From: Myxococcus xanthus
GTDB taxonomy: Bacteria > Myxococcota > Myxococcia > Myxococcales > Myxococcaceae
Direction of reading: 5' to 3'
Length of the DNA stretch: 64,000 nucleotides
NCBI RefSeq assembly: GCF_900106535.1
Contig: NZ_FNOH01000023.1
Coordinates: forward strand, 1-64,000
The translations under genes were made by a program, and so were the position numbers. Shown here piece after piece: positions 4,767 to 22,306 of this stretch. Numbering within the stretch: the stretch's first letter is position 1; each line of letters opens with the position of its first letter. Below the pieces are notes generated by a model, which was given only the letters and a program-made list of their open reading frames with translations, did no database searches and was not told the DNA's origin.

Positions 4767-5807
4767 TTATTCTTGTCGCTTGGGCACAACGAGTCCCTGG
4801 CTCAGACGCTTCAACACTCGCTGTTTCTGGCGCCGTTTGTAGGCCTCGTGCGCATTGTCTCCACGCTCATTAAGTCGCGCGGTTTCTTCATCGACAATCT
4901 GGAATTCGACAAGCGAGATGATGATTCTCCCCTTTCGCTGCCGGGTGTCTTCTTCCGGAGTGGGCAGATAGGCATCCATTCGCATGGGGAGGTCTACCAC
5001 GAAGTTGAGCGCGCGGTAGGTATTGCCCGAAAAAGTGTTCCCCCCAGTGTTCTCTCGATCTTCGTAGTCACGATCCAGATGGAGTCGTGGGATGTACTGC
5101 TCGAAGTGAGGGTTCTCAGCGAGCACAGCCTTGAACGGCATCAGCGTGTTTTCAGTTTGCCCCGGGACAACCAAGTGAAAGGGGAAGAGGCGCTGGGAGA
5201 GGTAGTAGAGAACCGGCAGCAAGTCCTCCCGCCTCTTGGTCACCACCCGGAACCGGGTCCTGTCGTAGACTTGGGCGGCAACGGTCTCCTTCTTCGCCAG
5301 CAACTTGGTGACAAGCGAGTCCTGGGTCTTGATGGAGTGCGCGAACTCCGCAATGGGCAGCCCTTTGGACTGCATCTCGGCGGCAACTCCCATCACCCGC
5401 TCCATGATGAGTTCTGCCAACTCCGCCTCTGACACAGGTAGCCGGAAGAGCAGGTCTCGCCCTTCAATGTGCTGAATGACGTGCATCACCTTCAGAACGA
5501 CACACGCAATCCGTCGGTGACGGGGCGCCCCCTTGACACCAGACGCGTAGAGGAACAAGTCATGGATTTCCTCTGGCCTCGCCACCGCATCTGCGACGCG
5601 GTAGTTGAACGTCTTCCGAAGGTACTCAACAGCTTCAGCCAAGACGGCACGTGCCCACTCATCATCGTAGGGACGAGACACATCCAACTGGAGCAACCTG
5701 AGGAAGTTGTCCACCTCCCCACGGGACTGGAAGTGCATTCGCCGCCAGTCGATTACCGACCCTCCGCGGAGAATCAACCGGATACGCTCCAGTTCACGCA
5801 GCCCCAT
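4767..5807 (-). CDS. TIGR04552-like protein with a divergent RelA/SpoT-type nucleotidyltransferase domain
   Basis: This myxobacterial protein is, to my recollection, a member of the uncharacterised TIGR04552 family. Reading residues against RelA/SpoT synthetases gives a collinear match. SLVTKLLAKKE corresponds to SIYRKM. VYDRTRFRVVTKR corresponds to FDLIAIRCV, with the Mg-binding Asp at residue 182. GNTYRALNFVV corresponds to NGYQSIHTTV. VEFQIVDEE, followed by NERGDNAHEAYKRR, corresponds to IEIQIRT followed by AEYGVAAHWAYK, with the catalytic Glu at residue 301. The IRT triplet is replaced by IVD and there is an insertion of roughly 50 residues before the GNTYR segment. No HD hydrolase, TGS or ACT domain is seen; the N-terminal 160 residues are helical. 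I start at ATG 5807, which has GGTGG upstream; a longer form from 5936 is possible. The family call is from memory and the fold is inference. Confidence 0.7.
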   Translation of the reverse strand: MGLRELERIRLILRGGSVIDWRRMHFQSRGEVDNFLRLLQLDVSRPYDDEWARAVLAEAVEYLRKTFNYRVADAVARPEEIHDLFLYASGVKGAPRHRRIACVVLKVMHVIQHIEGRDLLFRLPVSEAELAELIMERVMGVAAEMQSKGLPIAEFAHSIKTQDSLVTKLLAKKETVAAQVYDRTRFRVVTKRREDLLPVLYYLSQRLFPFHLVVPGQTENTLMPFKAVLAENPHFEQYIPRLHLDRDYEDRENTGGNTFSGNTYRALNFVVDLPMRMDAYLPTPEEDTRQRKGRIIISLVEFQIVDEETARLNERGDNAHEAYKRRQKQRVLKRLSQGLVVPKRQE

Positions 5808-9896: not shown

Positions 9897-12800
9897 CTAC
9901 CTGCGCACCTGTACCTCCACGTGCGTACCCACGGCGACGCGCAGCTCGTGCAGGTCCTCGGAGGTGGCGAACACCAACAGTTCTCGCAGCTTGTTACGCA
10001 CCGGGACGCGGAAGGCGGAGCCCGTCTCGCCCTGCACCATGCGGCGCACCGGCTCCATCTCTCCCGCAGCGAGCAGACCCGCCCGCGCCGCGGTGAGCTC
10101 CGCGCCCTCCAGGTACTGCCGCACTGCCTGCGGCGTCGCGGTGGGCAACCAGGCACGCGCCGCCTTCGCCAGCACCGCGCGGTCCGGCTCGTTGAGGCTC
10201 CGCTCCAGCAGCCGACGCTCCGGCTCCACCAGGTGCTGCGCTTCCGCGATGCGCACGTTGCCCACAACGAGGCTCAGCGCCGCCTGGAGGATGGCCTCCA
10301 GCCGCTCGGGGGCCACGCGCTGGCTGAAGGCCAGCTCGGAGCGCGCCAGCGCCAGGGTGCGGCCCAGGAGGTAATAGACCTCCTTCTGGCCCTGCTCCGC
10401 GAAGTACTTGCCGCCCACGCGCAGCGAGGCCGGGTGCGTCTGGAGCAACTCCACGTTGATGAGCGGCTCGGGCGCCGGCTCGTTGGAGCGCTTCGCCATC
10501 CGCTCGCGCGTCGCCACGAGGAAGGGCGAATACAGCTCCACCGCCTCCATGCCCAGCACGCGCGCCACGTACCGATAGTGGTGGACGTGGTACTCGGGCG
10601 CACTGGCCACGTCGATGCGGTGGCGCTTGGGCACCAGTTGGTACTGCTGGGACGGCACCGCGTACAGGTGCCCCACCTTCGCGAAGAGGAGGCCCAGCAG
10701 CTCCGCTAGCGGGCCGCGCGCCTTCGGATGGAACAGGTGGTTGTGCCACAGCTGGTCGTTCAGCGGACGCGGCTCCACCTTCTCCTTGTTCTTCGCGTAG
10801 GGCCCCAACTTGGTGAGGATCTCCTGCTCGTCCTCCCCTGCCTCGCCCAGCAGACCGGACACCGCCTGCGCGGCGAGCCAGGCGCCATCGTAGTTCTTGC
10901 GCAGCGCGGACAAACGCACCAGCGCGCCCACCACCTTGCGCGGGTCCGTCGTGTTCGGCAGCGCGCGGCGGAGCGCGGCGATGGCCTCGTCCTCCCGGCC
11001 CGGCATCTGTCCGGCGAGGTCCGCGAAGGCCTCCTGCACCGCCGCGTCTTCGGGCAGGCCCTTGGCGGCCACGCCGTACGCGGCCACCGCGCCTTCCGGG
11101 TGCTTCAGCACCTGGAGGTACAGGTCGCCGAGCGCGCGCCACAGCGCCATGCGCGCCACGTGCGTCTCCGGCGTCTTGGGCAGCCGGCCCAGCATCTTCG
11201 TGTAGTTCTCCTCCAGTTGCTTCCACTGGCGCGCCGCGCCGAGCATCGCCTCCAGCGCGCTGAAGGCCTCCACGAAGCGCGGGTCCAGGTCCAGGGCGGC
11301 GTTGAAGGCCTCGGTGGCGCCCTCCACGTCCTTCAGGTCATCGCGGCGCAGCTCGCCCAGCGCGAACCAGACGCGCTTGGCCTTGTGCGGCTCCAGGCCC
11401 AGCGCGGGGAGCGCCAACATGCGCGCCAGCACGTCCGCCGCCTTCTGGCCCTGACGCGTCTCGCGCAGCAGGACGTAGAGCTGGTCCATCACCTCCGGCG
11501 CGTCCGGCTGGGACTTGAGCGCGTTGGTGAAGGCGTCAATGGCCATGTACGGGTCGTGCAGCTCGTCACGCGCGATGCGGCCCAGCTCCAGGCACACCTT
11601 CGCGCGGGCCTCGCCCTCCAGCACACCCACCAACTGCTGCCGCAGCTCGGCGGACTTCTCGTACTGGCCCTGCTTCTCCAGGAGCGCCACCAACGCGCGC
11701 AGCGTCGGCTCGTGGCCCGGATCGATGGCCAGCGCCTTCTCGAAGTGGTTCTGCGCGCGGTCCGTCTGGTTCAGCGCGGCGTGGATGTCGCCGAGCTGCC
11801 AGTACACCTCCACCACCTCCAGGTCCGTCAGCTCCTCGCGGTGGTGGATGAGGATGGTCTGGAAGACCTTGAGCGCGCCTTCGTAGCGGCGCGTCTGCAC
11901 CAGCAGGTTGCCGTAGCCCTCCAGCGCGGGCAGGTACGTCGCGTCCAGCTCGTAGGCCTTCTCGTAGCAGCCCAGCGCCTTGTCACGCTTGCCCAGCTTC
12001 TCCGCCACGTAGCCCAGGCGGTAGAGCTGACGGCAGAGGTCCGCGGCGGAGACGGAGTCCTTGTCCGCCACCGCCATCTCCGCCATCTTCCGCGTGACGA
12101 TGTCCAGCATCCGCTCGCCGGAGGCCCAGTCCTCATGCGCGATGTACACGTCCGACAGCGGGCGCGCGGCCTCCAGGCTGTCCGGGATGTGCTTCAGCGC
12201 TTCCTGCCAGTAGCCGGTGGCGGTGTCCCGGTCCTCGCGCGTCTCCGCGTGGTAGCGCGCGACGTCCAGCAACGCGCGGCCCTTGGCGGCCGGGTCCTCG
12301 GTCTGCTCCGCCTCCTGACGCAGGGTCTGCTCGTAGCCGCTCCAGTCCTTCTCCTGCTCCTGGATGCCCTTGAGGGCGCGGATGCTGGGCAGGTGGCCGG
12401 GGTCCACCGCGAGCGCCTGCTGATAGGCGGTCCGGGCGCTGCCCGTGTCCATCAGCATGTCCTCGTTGATCTTGCCCAGGCGGTAGTACAGCTCCACCGC
12501 GTCCTTTGACTGCCCGGCGAGCTCCGCCTCCTTCGACAGCATCTCCAGCGCGAAGGGCCAGTTGCCGCTGCGCTCGTACATCGTGCCCAGCGCGTGCAAC
12601 GCCGGACGGCACTCAGCGTCCACCGCGAGCGCCGCGTGGTAGTTGTTCACCGCGCGGTCCAGCGCCTTGAGCTGCTGGTACTGGACGTTGCCGATGTCCA
12701 CGTAGAGCTCGGCCTGCTCCTGCGGGCTGACGGCCAGCGCGAGCTGCCGCTCGTACGCCGCGATGAGGTCCTCCCACCGCGCCTGCGCCCGGCGCAGCCG

Positions 12801-15800
12801 GATGAGCGTCTTGATGGCCTGGACGTTCTGCGGATCGATGGCGAGCACGCTCTCCACGCAGACGTCCGCGTTCGCCGGGTTCTGGTACTTGTCCTCCCAG
12901 ATGGTCGCGCTGCGGAAGAGGACGCGAATCTTCTCGCGCCAGTCCTCGCTCAGCTCCAACATCCGCTCGTAGATGGCGAGCAGGTCCGCCGGGTGGTCCA
13001 ACCGCGTGTGGAGCCGCTCCAGCGAGTCCAGCGCCTCGCGGTTGACGGGGTCCAGCTCCAGCGCCTGCCGGTACGCGGCCACCGCCGACTCGTCGTCGCC
13101 GATGTCACGCTCGTAGACGCCCGCCACCTCCACCTGGATGCGCGCGCGCTCCTCGATGCTGTCCGCCAGGTCCCTGGCCCGAAGCAGCGTGGACGCGACG
13201 TCCGGCCACGACCGCTGACGACGGTACAGCGCGGTGAGCACGCCGAGCGTCTCCGCGTCGGGCTCGAGCTCCAACGCACGCAGCAGCGCGCTGGCGGACT
13301 CGACGGGGTCCTCCAACTGCTCGTCCCAGACGCGGGCAATCTCGCGGAGGATGCCCTTGCGCTGCTCGATGGAGCCGGCGGCCTCCAGCTTCTGCTCCAG
13401 CGCCACCACGTACTCACGCTGACGGCCACGCCGCTGGAACACCGCGGCGAGCCCATCCAGCGCGGTGGCGTTGGTCGGGTCGAACTCGAGAATCTTCCGG
13501 AACGCCGCTTCCGCCGCCTGCGGGTCATCCAGGTGCGTGTCGTGGACACGCGCCAGCGTCGCGTAGAGCCGCTCGGCCAGTGCGCCACGCGGCAGCTCGT
13601 CGGCGACCTCCTCGTAGACGGCGGCCAGCTCCTCGTGGCTGCCCGTCTCGTCGGCCAGCCGCTCCACCTCCTCGCGCAGCGTGTCGTCCGACGCGTCCAA
13701 CTGGAGCGCACGGCACAGCGCCAGGAAGGCCACGTCCTTCTGTCCCAGCCGCGCTTCCTGCACCCGGGCCAGCTCGCGCAGCGCGGCCAGCTTCTCCTCG
13801 TCCGTGACGAGGTGGGGCATGTAGCGGTCCATCACCTGGGCGTACGCACGCCAGTCGTTGTGCGTCCGGTACAGGTCGCACGCGCGCTCGTAGGCGGTGC
13901 GGTTGGCGGGGTCCAGCTCGAGCACCTTCTCCAGCGCGCCCGAGGACAGCTCGGGCTTGCCGCCCTGCCCCACCCACAGGTCCGCCACCGCGAAGTAAGC
14001 AGCGACAGCCTGCTCACGCTCCTCCGTCAGGAGGTGCACCTGCACCTTCAACTCCAGCGCGCGCACCGCGTCGTTCCACGCACGCAATGAGACGAAGAGC
14101 TCGTGCACGCGGTCCAGCTCGGGAACCTGGTGCGGCTCCACTTCCAGCGCGCGCCGGGCGGCGTCCAGGGACTCCTCGCGGCGGCCCATGCCGGCCAGGA
14201 CTTCCGCCAGGCGCAGACGCAGCGCCTTCACGCCGTCACTGCTCTCCTGAAGAGGAATCAGCCGGCGCAGCACGCCCACCAACTCTTCACGCTGGCCCGT
14301 CTCGTCGTACAGCTCGCGCAGCGTGTCGAGCACGCCACGGTGACGTGCATCCCGGTCCAGCGCGGCCTTGAAGTACGGCACGGCCTGTTCCGGCTGCTTC
14401 AGCAGGCGGTACACGACGCGGCCCAGGCGCTCATTGAGCCGCACGACCTCGCGGGGGTCCAGCGTCACCGCCAGCCGGCCCTCCAGCAGCTCACGCAGGT
14501 CCTGCGGCCGGTCGGCGCGCTCGTAGAGAGACTCCAGCGCGGAGAAAGCCTGCTCGTTGCGCGCGTTCTTCGCCAGCAGCTCGCGGTACAGGTCGATGGA
14601 CCCGCCCAGGTCCGCCAGTCCTTCGGCGGAGACCTGCGCCATCTTCGCCAGCACGCGGTCGCGCTCGGCGCCAGACACCTTCTCCGCCTGGAGCTTCAGG
14701 ATGCCGTAGAGCTTCTCCGACGCGCCCGCCGACTCGTAGATGCCCTCCAACAGCCGCGCCGACGCGAGGTGCTCCGGGTCCAACGCCAGGATGCCTTCGT
14801 AGGCACCCGCCGCGCGGTCCGGGCTGTCCAGCCGCTCCTGGTAGAGCTGGCCCAGGCGGAACAAGTAGCCCACCCGGTCCGAGGGCTCCGTCACGCCAGC
14901 GACCAGTGCCTCCAAGATGCCCGCCAGCTCCGGCCAGGCCTCCAGTTGGAGGTACAGCCTGTCCAACGCCACCAGCGACGGCTCCTGCACCGTGGGGTGC
15001 AGCGTGCGCGCACGCTCGTAGTAGGAGATGGCGCGGTCCGAGTCGCGCAGCTTCGTCTCCAGCATCTGTCCCAACCGGAGGCAGACCTGCGCGGCATCCG
15101 CGGCCTCGGCCACGCGCGGCAGAGCCTCCTCGTACGCGGCCAGCAGCTCGTCATAGCTGGCGGACGCATCTGCCGCGTTCTCCAACCGAGCACGGACGGC
15201 GGCGTCGTTCGGGTCTTCCTTGAAGGCGCGGAAGAGGGCCAGGAAGGCCAGCTCCGACTCCTCCTGGGACTCCCGCAGCGTGGCCAGCTCGCCCAGGAGC
15301 GCCTTGCGCTCGAATGCGTCGCCCGACACGCCCACGCGCGTCTCGATGACCTGCGCCAGGCGCGTGATGTCGCCGCTGATGCGAAGGGCACGCAGCAACG
15401 TCTCCACCGCGAGCAGGTTCTGCGGCTCGCGGGCCACCAGCGCCTCCATGCGGCCCACCGCGCCCGCATGGTTGGCCTGCACGGACAGCACCTCGCCGTA
15501 CAGCGCCAGCGCGCCTGTGCGGTCCAGCAGCCGCGACTCGCGCACGATGGCCAGACGGAACTTCAGTTCCAGTCCCTCCTCCGCGGAAATCAGCGCGATG
15601 CGGCGAGCCAGTGCGTCCGCCAGCTCCGGCCAACGCTCCTGCTTCTGGCAGAGCGCCTCCATGCGCTCCAGCGTGGGCAGGTCGTCCGGCTTGAGTTCCA
15701 GCAGGCGCCGGAAGGTGGCCAGCGCGCCCAGCGCATCATTGAGCTGCTCCTCCTGCAGCGTGCCCATCTGGAAGAGCACCGTGGCGCGACGCGCCGGGTC

Positions 15801-18800
15801 CTCCGCCACCGCGAGCTGCCGGCGCAGCACCTCCAGCAGCTCCGTAGGCTTGCCCTGCGACGCCACCAGCCGCACCGTGCCATCCAGCGCTTCGGTGTCC
15901 GTGGGCCGCAGCTCCAGCACGCGCTTCCACGACACCAGCGCCTCGGAGGGCTCGCCCAGGTCCGTCTGGATGCGGGCCAGCGCGCGGTACAGCTCGGCGC
16001 GTGACGCATCCCCTGCCTTGCCCACCACCTCCGTCAGGATGGCGGCCAGTTCCTCGGGCGCCTCGGCCTTGTCCACCAGCGCGACGCACAGCTCCAACGA
16101 ACGCAGATCATCTGGCAGCTCGCGCAGCGCGCGCGTGGCGGCCAGGAAGCCCATCTCCGCGTTCTCCAGCGAGCCGGCGTAGATTTCCGCGATGCGGCGC
16201 AGCAGCGCTGCGCGCTCCTGCGGCACGGCCTCCGCCGAGGCACGGGACTCCAGCATCTCCACCTGCTTCAGGTGGTTGCCCACCGAGGCGAAGACGGGCT
16301 CCAGCGCGCTGGCCGCGGCGCCACGCAGCGGGCTCTCCGAGCGCGCCATCTCCTCCAGCGCGCCCACCGCACCGGCATGCCCCGCCCGGCGCTCCAGCAC
16401 GGCCTGGTACAGCTCCAGTGCGCCGCGCGGGTCGTCCAGACGCGACACCTTCAGCCGGCCCAAGCGCACTCGAAGGTCGGACGCCTCTTCCTGGGCGCCA
16501 CGCTCGTCCGCGAGCTGGATTTCCCGCTCGATGTGCTGCGCCAGCTCCGGCCAGCGCTCCATCTCCGCGAGCACCCGCCCCAGCAGCTTCAGCGCGTTGG
16601 CGTTCTCCGGCCGCAGTCCGAGGATTTCCCGGTACGACTGCGCCGCCAGCGACTTGTCCGCCAGCGTCTCCTCGGCCAGGTGCGCCAGCTCGAAGAGCAG
16701 GTTCACCTGCGAGGACGCGTTCGCCTCGGCCGCCACCTGACGGCGCATGACGAGCGCCAGCTCGCGGTGCGCGCCCGTGCGGCGGTGGACCCGGGCGATG
16801 GCGTCCAACACCGACTTGTTCTTCGGGTCCCTGCGCGACATCTCCTCCATCGCACGGACGGCCAGGTCATAACGCTTGAGGCGGTTGTCGTAGATGCCCG
16901 CCAGGCGCCGCCACAAGTCACCGGCGAGCGGATCCTGCGCGCCGAGCTCCAGCTGGTCTTCGTAGGCCGCCGCCACCTCCTCGAACGCACCGGAGTCGGC
17001 CGCGAGCCGCTCCAGTTCGTCGCGCACCGCGGCTTCCTGCGGCGCCTCGTTGAAGGCGCGCAGGCGTGCGACGAAGGCGAGCGACGTCTGCCCCAGCGCC
17101 TCGCGCAGGGTGGCGATCTCCTGGAGGTGCTCCAGCCGCCGCTCGGGCGCCACGCCCGGCAGCAGCACCTCGAGCACGTCCACCAGCTTCCGGGTGTCGT
17201 TGACGCCCCGGTAGACAGGCTCCAGCAGGCGCGCCGCTTCGGAGCGAGGCGCCTCGTGCGCCATCAGCCGCTCCAGGCCCGCCACCACCTGTCCGTCTCC
17301 AGGCGCCAGCTCCAGCAGACGCCGGTACACCGGCAGCGACTCCGCCGGCCCCACCTCCTTCTCCAGGAGCTGGGCGCGCTTCAGCAGCCAGTTGCGCCGT
17401 GCGCCTTCATCCGCGGCGCCATCCGCGAGCTGGTCCAGCACGTCCGCCTGCTCCACGAAGCGCCGGGACTTCGCGTAGAGCTTTTCCAGCGCGAGCAGGC
17501 CCTCGGGCACCTTCCGGAGCGCCAGCGCGGAGCGATACGTCTCGATGGCCTTCGCGTCTTCACCCGCGTTCGCGTACGCCTCGCCCGCCTTGAGGAGCAG
17601 CCCCACGCGCTCCTCCGGGTCGGTGGCGAGCTGCGCCTGACGCGTGTAGACCTCCGACAGGCTCTTGGCGTTCTCCCCCTTCTCGTACAGACGGGAGAGG
17701 GCCTCCAGCGCCTGCCGGTCCTGAGGCGCGTCCGCCAGCAGGCTCTTCCACAGCCGCGCAGCCTCTTCGGGCTGGTCCAACGACTCGCGCAGCTCCGCCG
17801 AGCGCCGCAGCAGCTCCAGCGCCGCGGGGTCCCCCGCGTTCAGCTCCGTCGCCGCCGTCTCGTAGATTTCGGCCAGCACCTCGTGAGAGCCCGTCTCGCG
17901 CGCCAGCCGCTCCAGGTCCGGCTGCACGCCTTCCCGGTCCAGCCCCTGCGCGAAGGACTTCACCGCGGACATGAACGCCAGCGAGGGCTGGAGCATGTCG
18001 CGCTCGTAGATGCGGCGAACCTCTCCCGAGAGGAGGATCTTCTCCACGGTGAGCGCGGAAGTCATCCGCGCTTCACGCAGCGCCACACGGCGGGCGTGGT
18101 CGCCCACCTGCACCAGCACCGGGTCGAGCACATCCAGCGCCGCGCCGCTCGCGGGCACTGCTGCCTTCACCCAGGCCTCGAGCGCCGCGCGCGCACCTGG
18201 ATGGCCCGAATCCTCGGCCAGGATCTTCCGGTAGAGGCCCAGCGCCGCGTTCGGGTCATCCAGGACCGTGCGCTGGAGTTCCGCCAGACGGAAGGAGACT
18301 TCACGCCCCTGCGGGCTCTGCCCTTCCTGGTTGCGGCGCAGCGCCAGCGCCCAGGCCAGGTCGGCGTGACGGCCACTCTCGGTGTAGAGCCGGTCCAGGG
18401 TCGCCGCGGCTTCACGGCTCGCCGGGTCGCGCTCCGCGATGACGCGCCAGGCGTCCGCGGCGCTCTCCTTGTCCATCAATTTCGTCTCGTGCAGCAGCGC
18501 CGCCTCGCGCAAGAATGCCAGCTGCTCGGCGGGCTCCGGCGATGCCGCGGCCAGCTTCTCCAGCACCTCGGCGAGCGCCGCCCATTCCTCCCCCGCGCGA
18601 TGCAAGCGCTGAAGGGCGCGCAGGCAGTCCAGGTTGCCCGGCTCGATGGCCAGCAGGTCGCGCAGCGCCTTCACCGCGCCGGCCTTGTCGTCCAGCTTCT
18701 TCTCCTGCACCTCGGCCAGCTCGCGCAGCAGCGCCAGTCGCGCGGAGCCGACGTCCCCTTCCTCCGCCAGCTCCGCGATGATTTCCGCGTAGCTGTCCAG

Positions 18801-21800
18801 CGAGTCCGCGTCCTCCGCCGCCTGCCGCGCCGACGAGCGCAGCCCCGCGTCACCGGGCGCCAGGCGCAGTGCGCGCGCCAGCGCCGCGAAGGCCAGCTCC
18901 GGCTGCCGCAGGTGCGTCAGGTGCACCTGCGCCGCGTGTCGCAGTGCCTGCACTCGCGCGGCGTCGTCCTTCGCCACTTCCGCCAGAACATCCAACGTGG
19001 CCACCAGCTTGCGGTGGTCCTTGGTGCGCTCGAAGGCAGGCACCAGCACACGCGCAGCGGCCTCGCGCGCCGAGCCCGAGGCGAGCATGGCCTCCAGTGC
19101 CGCCAGCGCATCCGGGTCCGTGGGGCGCTGGAGCAGGATGTCCGCGAAGCTCTGCACCGCCTCCGCGCTGCCATCCTGCGACTCCTGCAGCAGGTGCGCA
19201 CGGCGCAGCTTCAGTCGCGCCACTCTGTCCGCGTCACCCGCGGACTCGGCCAGCGCAATCATCCGCGCCAGCGTGTCTCCCAGCTCGCGCGTCCGGCCCG
19301 CCTTCTCGTACAGCTCCGCCAGACGCGGCAGATGCCGGCCTTCCTCGGCGCCGTGCGAAAGCGCGGACTGCAGCGCCTCGGCCGCCTGCGCATCGCGTCC
19401 CAGCTCCGAGTTGAGGTCCACCAACTGAAGCAGCAGCTCCAACCGCTCCTGCCCACGCGCGCCCTGGATGCGCTTGCGCAGCAGTCCTTCCGCGTCCGCG
19501 GACCGACCCGCGCGCCCGTACAGACGCACCAGCCGCTGCAGCACCGCGTTCGACTCGGGCGCACGGGTCACCGCCGCTTCCAGCGCCGCGATGGCCTCCG
19601 CGGCGAGCGCGCCCTCTTCCGCCAGGCTCGCGGCCTCGAGCAGCAACGGCACGGCCACCGCGGGGTCCTCGGACTCGGAGGCCAGCGTGCGCAGCACACG
19701 CCCCAGCTCCGCGTGCGCGGACAAGTCCCTGGCCAGCCTCAGCGCCTCCGCGCGGGTGCCCTCGTCCTTCGCGTCCTCGCGCAGCGCGCGCACCTGGACG
19801 TCGAAGGCCGCGCGGCTGTCCGCGAGCTGCTTCTCATGGATGCTGGCCAGCAACGAGAACAGGCGCTTGCGGGCCGTGGGCTCCGTCGTCACCTCCAACT
19901 GCTGCTGGAGCGCCGCCACCTGCCGCTGGTGGTCGCCGCTGCGGCCGTAGTGCGCCGCCAGCGCCTCTGTCACCTCCGCCGTGCGAATGCCCGCCGCCGC
20001 CAGCCGCTCCAGTCCGCCCACCACCACGCCGGTGGAGACGTTCTCGGAGAGCAGGCCGAGGAACAGGTCCGTCGCGTCCTCCTGACGCCCCAACCGCTCG
20101 GCGTACAGCTTCGCCTGGCGCGCCGTCCACTCGTTGCGCTCCAGCTGCGTCTCCGCCAGGCCCGCCAACCGTCCCGCGAGCGCCGCTGCCTCGTCGAACT
20201 TCGACAAGGCCACGCACAGCGCCTGCAGTCGCTGCACGCCCGCCGCATCCTCTGGCGCGAGCTGCACCAACTGACGCGCCAATGGCTCCAGGTCCTCGGG
20301 CGCCGCGCCGGCTGCCTCGCGCCGGGCCACGTCCGCCTCCAGCCGCGCCTTCGGGTCGTCCGCGAGCGCCGCGGCCGCCTGCAGCGACTTCACCGCCTCC
20401 ACGGCGGCCGCGTCACCCGGCGCGCGTGCCAGCACTTCCCGCCATGCGGCCTCCGCGCGCGACGGGTCCGCCAGGGGGCCCTGGAGCAACTGGGCCAACT
20501 GCCGCCAGATCGTTGCCGCCACCTCCGCCACCGGCGCCGCTTCCGCCGCGCGTTGCAGGGCTAGCGCCAGCGCGGGCTGCACCTGGGCCTTCTCCGCGTG
20601 CTCCACCACCGTGCCCAACAGCAGCGGACGGCCCGGATCCAGCTCCAGGGCGCGCGACAGCACCTCGAAGGCCCCGCGCGCGTCGTCCTTCTCCTCGAAC
20701 ATCAGCGCGAGCGCTTCGCAGAAGGCCACCCGCTCCGGGCGCGGACGTGGCGCCAGCAGGGCCAGGTCCAGCAGCGGCACCACGGCTTCCAGCTCGTCGT
20801 CCTCGGCCAACAGCCGCGCCAGTTGGAAGGCCGCCAACGCCTGCGTGGGGTCCAGCTTCAGCGCCGCTTCCAGGTGCTCACGCGCGGCGTCCGCGTCCTT
20901 GAGCTGCGTCAGGAACAGGTCCGCCAGCCGCAGCCGCATGCCCGCCTGGGTGGAGCGGTCCTTCACCGTGCCCAGATAGCGCTCCAGCACCGCGACGGCT
21001 TCCGGAGCCCGGCCCTTCTCCAGGAGCTGCTCGGCCGCCAGGCTGGCCGCGTCCGCGCGGGACGGGTCCGCCGCCACGGCCTTCTCGAAGGCCGCCAGCG
21101 CGCCGTCCGCGTCGTTCATCCGGCCAAGGCGCAGCGTGCCCACGCGCAGCCACAGGTCCACCTGCGCGGTGCGGTCCTTCACCTCGCCCGCCATCGCCTC
21201 GATCTGCTCGATCGCCGGCGCGAAATCACCGCCCGAGCGCAGCGTCAGCTTCTCGATGAGCGACAGGCCTTCGGGCATGCCCGGCCACAGCAGGAAGCAG
21301 CGGTCCAGCGCCTCCTTCACCTTCGCAGCCGCGCCCGGGTCGTACCAGGCGAAGAGCTTCGCCACGAGCAGCGACAGGCGCGCAGCGCTCTTCCTGTCGC
21401 GCTCCTCCAGCGACATGCTGCGCAGCATCCGCACGCGGTCACGCCACGTCTGCTCGAAGCGCTGCAACGCGCGCGCGGTCTTCTCCAGCCGCGCGTTCTG
21501 CGGCTCCAACGCCTGGGCGACATCCACCACCCGCTGCGCCAGTTCATGCTCGGTGGGGTCGTCCACCAGCCGCTCGGCGAGCGCGGCGTACTCCTCCGCC
21601 ATGCCCGCGTCCCCCAGCGCCGCGCGCTCGCGTTCCAAGGCCTCGAAGGCCGGCTGGAAGCGCTCTTCCGACAACAGCAACTGACGCACGCGCCGGAAGG
21701 TGGCGCGGTCCGGCTTCGCGCGCGCCGCACGCTGCAGGCACAGCACCGCGCGGTCGCGCCGGAACAACTTCTGCTCGTAGACGTCGGCCGCCTTCAGGTA

Positions 21801-22178
21801 GTGGCCCGCGCACTCCTCGCCCTGCGTGACGCCGCCCAACCGCTCCAGGACGTCCGCCAGCGCGGCGCCATCCTGCCGCGACTCGTGCAGCCGCTTCAGG
21901 CCTCGGAGCGCGGGGAGCGGATCCTTCGCCACCAGCAACGCGCGCTTGAGCAGTTCCTCCGCGCGCTGCGTGTTGCGCTGCCGATCATGCGCGAGCTCCG
22001 CGGCGCGGCACAGCAGGCGCACCGCTTCATCGGAGACGACATCGCGCGAGCGCCCCTCGTAGAGGCGAATCAATTCCTCGACACGGCCGGCCTTGTCGAG
22101 TGCCGCTTCGGTTTCGACGAAGGTGCGGTCATCGGACACGCGCAGCGTGGGACGCGACGAGGGCGTGGGCTGTTGCAT
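9897..22178 (-). CDS. gltI: Giant tetratricopeptide-repeat protein GltI (AgmK)
   Basis: GltI is the very large TPR scaffold of the gliding complex. Here it is 4,093 residues, somewhat longer than the roughly 3,800 I recall for M. xanthus AgmK. Almost the whole protein is degenerate 34-residue helix-turn-helix repeats, with recurring motifs such as DPENARALLALERLY, AYRxxLELDP and WxELAxxLERLA. The repeats group into blocks of about 100-110 residues containing EELAAVYEE-like and ERxALLRRLAxLYE-like segments. No signal peptide or membrane helix is visible, so it should be cytoplasmic. The C-terminal 350 residues are not repeated and resemble a conserved cap domain ([20 protein letters not shown], then [14 protein letters not shown]). 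The start ATG 22178 ([14 protein letters not shown]) is supported by protein-like sequence from there on, although the ribosome site is weak. The very long open frames on the opposite strand are antisense shadows of this biased sequence. Confidence 0.92.
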
Positions 22179-22306
22179 GGAGGGGCGGGCCTTGGAATGG
22201 AAAGAAAAAGCAGCGAGGGCGCCAGAGACCGGAACTCTACCGGTCGCCAGCGCCCCCGAGCAATCCTGCAAAACCCGCCAAACGGCGGGAATCATTGGCC
22301 TTCTTG

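Follow-up and report, generated by a model that had tools for sequence, protein, structure and literature searches.

Gene and family assignment

What does the protein encoded at 4767-5807 of the window do, and is it a RelA/SpoT-type enzyme? The window is the whole stretch of DNA that was analysed, 64,000 nucleotides from Myxococcus xanthus. Known RSH enzymes are makers of (p)ppGpp, (p)ppApp toxins, and tRNA-modifying toxins, and the phylum is noted for starvation-driven development. A non-mobile family of the RSH fold, carried by most genomes of the phylum and combining a retained catalytic core with an altered acceptor side, would point to a branch of nucleotide signalling, or of RNA modification, that has been overlooked. 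An earlier note on this DNA had described the gene as coding for a divergent RelA/SpoT-fold protein, a candidate alarmone enzyme specific to myxobacteria.

4767-5807, minus strand: TIGR04552 family gene, 346 amino acids, with the ATG at 5807 and the stop codon at 4767-4769

The gene occupies a single open reading frame (346 codons and a stop codon) on the minus strand of the window, the strand being absent from the earlier note, and its start position is common to the window gene and the close relatives L002-L030. NCBIfam TIGR04552 matches the protein over its full length (residues 4-337) with an E-value of 2.2e-124 and 415.4 bits against a cut-off of 125. NCBIfam TIGR04562 also matches it (E 2.9e-104, 349 bits, cut-off 140), and both entries are labelled just 'TIGR04552 family protein'. 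The window's own genome (9.26 Mb, 91 contigs) has one TIGR04552-family match. The five motifs quoted previously occur in the stated order, namely SLVTKLLAKKE at 164, VYDRTRFRVV at 180, GNTYRALNFVV at 261, VEFQIVDEE at 300, and NERGDNAHEAYKRR at 313, and the two acids singled out, D182 in VYDRTRFRVV and E301 in VEFQIVDEE, sit at the positions claimed.

The view that TIGR04552 has no assigned activity holds, as NCBIfam supplies the name alone and literature use amounts to one table row. A literature search, with most subscription journals outside its range, met the name only in that row, in the available part of PMC9888234, and found no link between TIGR04552 and RSH enzymes. Such a link is absent from the accessible portions of PMC9888234, PMC3153485, PMC5794853, PMC11559606, PMC12288465, PMC8963815, PMC12691689, and PMC11782079. 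The RSH survey PMC3153485 distinguishes 30 subgroups, and its main text, as far as accessible, is without the words Myxococc, deltaproteobacteria, and Bdellovibrio.

Predicted fold and descent

4800-5435, minus strand: RelA/SpoT synthetase-fold domain, residues 125-336, from Foldseek, VIA-align (model residues 122-330), and hhalign (residues 117-325)

The RelA/SpoT synthetase fold proposed from the motifs is supported by structure prediction. The AlphaFold2 model of the window protein has a pLDDT of 84.5 and a pTM of 0.82, and all 44 PDB chains that Foldseek matches to it at E<=1e-3 are RSH-type, the best at 3.4e-6. The chains are labelled RelP, RelQ or small alarmone synthetase, Rel, RelA, and GTP pyrophosphokinase, with the exception of two chains of smu.1046c (3l9d), which is presumably a RelQ. 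The top VIA-align match is RelSeq (Z 13.7, rmsd 3.1, 126 aligned residues, model residues 126-318). Rows 1-25 are RSH-type, 22 RSH rows have Z-scores of 10.3-13.7 with RelA at 13.4, and the first non-RSH fold is DNA polymerase lambda at Z 8.7. The RSH match stands out because the usual best background Z is only 7-8. Whole-chain TM-scores in Foldseek are modest (0.23-0.34 by query and 0.15-0.58 by target), which is expected because of the additional domain and the insert. The toxSAS enzymes FaRel2 and Tas1 are not among the 50 VIA-align rows listed, and this has no bearing on kinship.

Evidence for RSH descent from single sequences is borderline. Pfam RelA_SpoT (PF04607) matches the window protein at E 0.0013, with 19.4 bits against a cut-off of 27. 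At E<=1 it matches 18 of the 23 diverse members examined, with 8.3e-6 as the best value, leaves five without a match at this threshold, and is followed by a family that matches three of the 23. The gathering cut-off of 27 bits is passed by none of 24 proteins, which are the 23 diverse members and the distant member P0002. The highest score, that of member L026, is 26.5 bits and covers positions 3-112 of the 113 in the profile, and the profile is spanned almost end to end (3-110 or more of 113) in L010, L026, L044, and P0002. The last of these is 26% identical to the window protein, scores 24.0 bits (E 5e-5, positions 3-111), and has DLVGVR and YRSLH where the window protein has DRTRFR and YRALN. 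Searches of PDB sequences with phmmer found no RSH for the window protein or P0002. With a profile of the 23 members, YwaC/RelP came first (E 0.13), and two viral polymerase domains, which are unrelated, came next.

The profile-against-profile signal for RSH descent is clear. The alignment of the TIGR04552 family, with 130 rows as input and 81 left after the program's own filter, was compared by hhalign with 31 Rel synthetase regions, giving a P of 2.7e-6 and a score of 50.1. The family region comprises residues 117-325, and D182 and E301 are paired with the Rel Asp and Glu. The controls score far lower, at 15.0 for the reversed Rel alignment and 21.8 for the best of 40 column shuffles, and seeding with P0002 gives a P of 1e-7. 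The series of collinear RelA/SpoT synthetase motifs reported before is borne out by this alignment, which extends over 148 collinear columns. Taken together, RSH descent and fold are strongly supported and are regarded as close to certain.

Donor side and predicted catalytic acids

5292-5330, minus strand: donor-site motif K160-x3-S164-x3-K168-x3-K172, from conservation and spacing compared with SaRelP K80, S84, and K88
5262-5264, minus strand: D182, predicted metal-binding catalytic Asp, in 130/130 rows and paired with the Rel Asp by hhalign
4890-4907, minus strand: E301-F-Q303-I-V-D306, equivalent of EIQIRT, with E301 as predicted second metal acid, from conservation
4830-4871, minus strand: N313-x-x-G316-x3-H320-x2-Y323-K-x-R326, equivalent of AExGxxAHWxYK, from the E301-to-H320 spacing

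As described in the accessible part of PMC5794853, the adenine in the SaRelP ATP site is stacked by R78 and R112, and the phosphates are held by K80, S84, K88, and R91. The same part places H190 at the ribose, D107 and E174 at Mg, and Y151 in the G-loop. Motif spacing and the hhalign register with Rel give S158 and R187 as the counterparts of R78 and R112, K160, S164, K168, and A171 as those of K80, S84, K88, and R91, and H320, D182, E301, and Y264 as those of H190, D107, E174, and Y151. The ATP site is thus incomplete, with seven of the nine donor positions named in SaRelP kept. These seven lie within the 41 most conserved of the 346 positions (conserved in >=95% of 67 representatives), with a hypergeometric P of 6e-6, which is not blind, as the mapping was drawn with the motifs in view.

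The 130-row alignment reaches down to 37% identity with the window protein. Within it, K160 and K168 are present in 130 rows, S164 in 129, and K172 in 128, while E301 and H320 are kept in 129/130 each, R187 in 128/130, and D306 in all. The sole row without E301 and H320 is member L050, whose frame departs from the family near residue 220, by a contig end. Conservation of D182 in every row and of E301 in all except this defective one, together with their alignment to the Rel pair, supports the predicted catalytic Asp/Glu pair that the earlier note had put forward. P0002 retains K160, K168, D182, R187, E301, Q303, and H320. The spacing from the metal Glu to the His is 19 in 129/130 members and in 31/31 Rel.

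The equivalents of R78 and R91 are never K/R in the 130 rows, position 158 being S, G, or N and position 171 being A, S, V, or I, and because of this ATP binding may differ or fail. In FaRel2, the arginines R64 and R77 hold ATP, according to the available part of PMC11782079.

Acceptor side and insertion

5040-5147, minus strand: insertion, residues 221-256, from PGQTxN to the G-loop, from the alignment of representatives
5004-5030, minus strand: G-loop-like segment S260-G-x-x-Y264-R-x-L-N268, from conservation in 130 rows

The motif PGRxKD is found in 26/31 Rel, and the acceptor stretch has two most frequent strings, in 9 and 6 Rel sequences, that differ by L -> M. The equivalent of this stretch in TIGR04552 comprises PGQTxN, the insert, and then NxFSGxxYRxLN. 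An insertion preceding the G-loop had been noticed before and is present, with a median length of 36 residues. Its length is 32-40 in 55/67 representatives, the minimum of 5 belongs to the defective row L050, its net charge is -3, and the alignment over it is uncertain. Position 264 has Y in 118 rows, F in 11, and a gap in one, which gives an aromatic G-loop residue in 129/130. Position 268 has N in 111 rows, H in 17, D in one, and a gap in one, and the distant P0002 shares the Rel-like His there.

The neutral residues Q217, N220, S260, N268, and V305 replace basic Rel acceptor residues, including the Arg of EIQIRT. The change from IRT to IVD recorded by the earlier note is a feature of the whole alignment, as position 305 is never K/R and D306 is invariant. 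In columns 205-272, R265 alone has K/R in 90% of rows. Conserved basic residues elsewhere are R183, R185, R276, R326, and R334, which could supply charge in a phosphate-binding patch.

The accessible part of PMC11782079 ascribes a large positive acceptor patch to the alarmone synthetases compared and a much smaller one to the tRNA-modifying FaRel2, and the small patch accounts for the missing alarmone synthesis of FaRel2. In TIGR04552 the acceptor is probably not GDP/GTP, because neutral residues replace the basic acceptor residues of Rel. By likeness to FaRel2, it is inferred that TIGR04552 accepts neither GDP nor GTP and that its target may be the end of an RNA. The altered acceptor-side residues relative to Rel argue for a different acceptor.

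N-terminal domain

5436-5807, minus strand: N-terminal helical domain, residues 1-124, from the AlphaFold2 model and conservation

The window protein has no Pfam match to HD, TGS, or ACT up to E 10. In its N-terminal domain, G15, S17, C102, K106, and H113 are present in 130/130 rows, and the distant P0002 is without H113. The domain is about as conserved as the remainder of the protein, with 14/124 versus 27/222 positions in the 95% set. When it is modelled alone, its pLDDT is 82.9. Foldseek found no PDB match for the domain alone at E<=1e-3 (best E 1.3), which is not proof of a new fold, and the best VIA-align Z is 3.6. The N-terminal helices of FaRel2 recognise tRNA, according to the available part of PMC11782079, and the N-domain may by analogy recognise the acceptor. 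Its net charge is slightly positive (median +2), which disfavours RNA binding.

Proposed reaction and alternatives

The preferred reading, drawn from residue comparisons, is an active RSH-fold pyrophosphokinase with a changed acceptor that is not GDP/GTP and is possibly an RNA 3' end, and it is given a probability of about 0.5. Mg-ATP would be bound among K160/S164/K168, R187, and H320, with D182 and E301 as metal ligands, and pyrophosphate would pass from ATP to an acceptor hydroxyl. The base of the acceptor would stack on Y/F264. Likelier than GDP/GTP as acceptor would be the 3' end of an RNA or some other molecule that carries a nucleoside, and the helical N-domain and the insert would probably serve in acceptor recognition or in gating of the site. 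From the earlier note, the RSH fold, the motifs, the acids, the IVD change, the insertion, and the lack of an assigned activity stand, and the restriction to myxobacteria does not. A nameless conserved gene gains a concrete biochemical hypothesis, and a probable different product can be sought.

A genuine alarmone synthetase, whose substrate-binding residues would be unusual and whose product would be (p)ppGpp, pGpp, or (p)ppApp, is possible but unlikely. The family shares the fold, the metal acids, and the aromatic G-loop residue with such enzymes, the Rel-like His occurs at 268 in 17/130 members and P0002, and other conserved arginines could stand in for the lost ones. However, the basic acceptor residues of Rel are gone. 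Besides the TIGR04552 gene, the window's own genome encodes one other RSH, a Rel whose open frame spans 763 aa, and PF04607 is matched in 177/189 genomes of the phylum; the stringent response proper is therefore already provided for. Myxococcus relA mutants reportedly lack starvation (p)ppGpp, which also counts against an alarmone synthetase here.

The absence of two donor-site arginines in all members would suit an RSH relative that has lost catalysis and serves to sense nucleotides or to regulate a partner. This is doubtful, since the metal acids, K160, S164, K168, and H320 are retained in 129 or 130 of 130 rows at identities down to 37%, and P0002 has kept its seven residues from K160 to H320 as well. 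Such retention is judged to be unusual in a pseudoenzyme.

A nucleotidyltransferase scaffold with other chemistry, such as NMP transfer to protein or RNA, is more doubtful still. It draws on DNA polymerases lambda, mu, and beta, which rank among the fold matches that come next (at Z of about 7.8-8.7), and on the invariant D306 at the place of the EIQIRT Thr in Rel. The 22 RSH rows nevertheless lie above these at Z 10.3-13.7, and the E-to-H spacing is as in Rel.

Distribution and selection

A family match at E<=1e-3 is present in 157/195 genomes of the phylum, the window's own included, and 153/195 are over the cut-off. None of 14 control genomes has a family match. There is a single match in 148/157 positive genomes and more than one in the nine others, in some of which two partial matches may be one gene read in pieces. 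Genome G069 has four family matches, of which L047-L049 were examined. The copy L049 has diverged: it contains an 18-residue insert, Ala replaces Ser 164, and Asp replaces Asn 268, with the catalytic acids retained.

A scan of named genomes gave 355 relatives, and the best 80 of the 355 were examined. These include records titled Myxococcus xanthus, Corallococcus, Sorangium, Anaeromyxobacter, Plesiocystis, Enhygromyxa, and Polyangium. The titles of the best 80 are myxobacterial or those of loose Deltaproteobacteria/Proteobacteria MAGs, plus one Klebsiella and one Comamonas title. The records so titled, L106 (Comamonas sp. KCTC 72670) and L088 (Klebsiella pneumoniae MAG), have a family gene 40% identical to the query L031, and both titles look mislabelled. 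TIGR04562 is found in 38/57 genomes from the phylum of genome G203. All 12 genomes reached through loci are positive, in a set chosen for carrying the family.

The earlier note had called the family specific to myxobacteria, and a Bdellovibrio gene bearing the TIGR04552 name contradicts this. In a table of PMC9888234, one row gives a TIGR04552 family gene of Bdellovibrio sp. NC01 that carries a small indel in a single evolved population, and the family membership is taken from the name in that row. The indel would fit a gene that is dispensable in Bdellovibrio.

Nine pairwise comparisons among 29 other loci of the phylum give dN values of 0.04-0.19 and dS values of 1.0-3.7, the higher dS values being near saturation. 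The wide presence in the phylum and the low dN versus dS indicate that the gene is conserved, functional, and under purifying selection.

Genomic context and mobility

In the window, the gene has an Ig-like-domain gene and Ffh on one side; on the opposite side are genes for a MORN-repeat protein, a protein that matches no Pfam family, and a zinc-ribbon/GYF protein. Parts of this arrangement are repeated at other loci. Ffh homologues were seen in the flanks of at least 39/130 loci, which is a lower bound because part of the loci have short flanks. No constant partner gene was found in the 65 usable of 67 dereplicated loci. The commonest neighbour family is a large zinc-ribbon/GYF protein in 19/65 loci, as counted from crude gene calls that include antisense frames; a stop-to-stop version (60 loci) was noisier. 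Deeper lineages have other neighbours (11 loci). An operon partner that would reveal the function was rejected, as no neighbour family goes beyond 19/65 loci.

Two further features of the window are a 4132-aa open frame at 9897-22295 on the minus strand, with tetratricopeptide-like repeats by eye and similar frames near the gene elsewhere, and a phage-integrase-family gene (PF00589) at 43-1047 on the plus strand, adjoining Ffh.

No relative was found on plasmids. Among viral contigs, neither an alignment search nor a search with P0002 found any, the latter being a single-protein comparison limited in reach to close relatives. No viral model matched in a fold search at an E-value under 0.001, the top entry, with E 1.0e-3, being a phage protein that carries the name RelA/SpoT. 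The record MW495066.1 (115573-132571, L169), titled 'Microcystis phage MaAM05', has a TIGR04562-type gene among glyS, secD, secF, a PBP1A-type gene, and acpS. It is treated as bacterial DNA filed as phage because glyS, secD, secF, and acpS flank the gene. A viral or plasmid origin was rejected, with no relatives in viral contigs or plasmids and a lone phage-record match that looks bacterial.

CapRel is among the fold matches (Z 8.8), which could speak for a toxSAS toxin belonging to a defence or toxin-antitoxin system. Such a toxin is very improbable given a top neighbour family that is a zinc-ribbon/GYF protein in only 19/65 loci (by crude gene calls), no plasmid or viral-contig relatives, a phage-record match amid glyS, secD, secF, and acpS, and a single match in 148/157 positive genomes. 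The TIGR04552 gene behaves as an orphan core gene rather than a toxin-antitoxin module.

The pyrophosphokinase reading with a changed acceptor can be extended, tentatively, to a non-toxic housekeeping RSH pyrophosphokinase across the myxobacterial lineage, which would have its own recognition domain and would mark the 3' end of an RNA or some other acceptor that is not GTP. If true, it would be either a new signal akin to alarmones or the physiological equivalent of the toxSAS reaction.

Comparison with known RSH enzymes

The long RSH enzymes (Rel, RelA, and SpoT) and TIGR04552 have in common the fold (RelSeq Z 13.7, RelA 13.4), the motif order, and the E-to-H spacing of 19. In contrast, the window protein has only 346 aa, no HD/TGS/ACT match, another N-domain, and an insert before the G-loop, and two donor arginines and the basic acceptor residues are replaced in TIGR04552.

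RelP and RelQ are the best Foldseek matches, and conserved equivalents exist for K80, S84, K88, D107, R112, E174, H190, and the G-loop Tyr. They differ in R78 and R91, which are without a TIGR04552 counterpart, and in the extra N-domain of TIGR04552. By the numbering in the accessible part of PMC5794853 (E174 and H190), the E-to-H spacing of SaRelP is 16, versus 19 in TIGR04552, and the spacing of 19 points to the long RSH enzymes as nearer cousins than RelP. The ranking of the nearest RSH differs between the fold searches, as VIA-align rows 1-5 are long RSH whereas Foldseek lists RelP and RelQ first.

The toxSAS tRNA pyrophosphokinases FaRel2 and CapRel differ from TIGR04552 in that R64 and R77 of FaRel2 are without a counterpart, and the TIGR04552 gene is a chromosomal core gene without an antitoxin-like partner (65 loci). 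They share the RSH fold with it (CapRel Z 8.8), and the small positive acceptor patch of FaRel2, as given in the available part of PMC11782079, resembles the loss proposed in TIGR04552.
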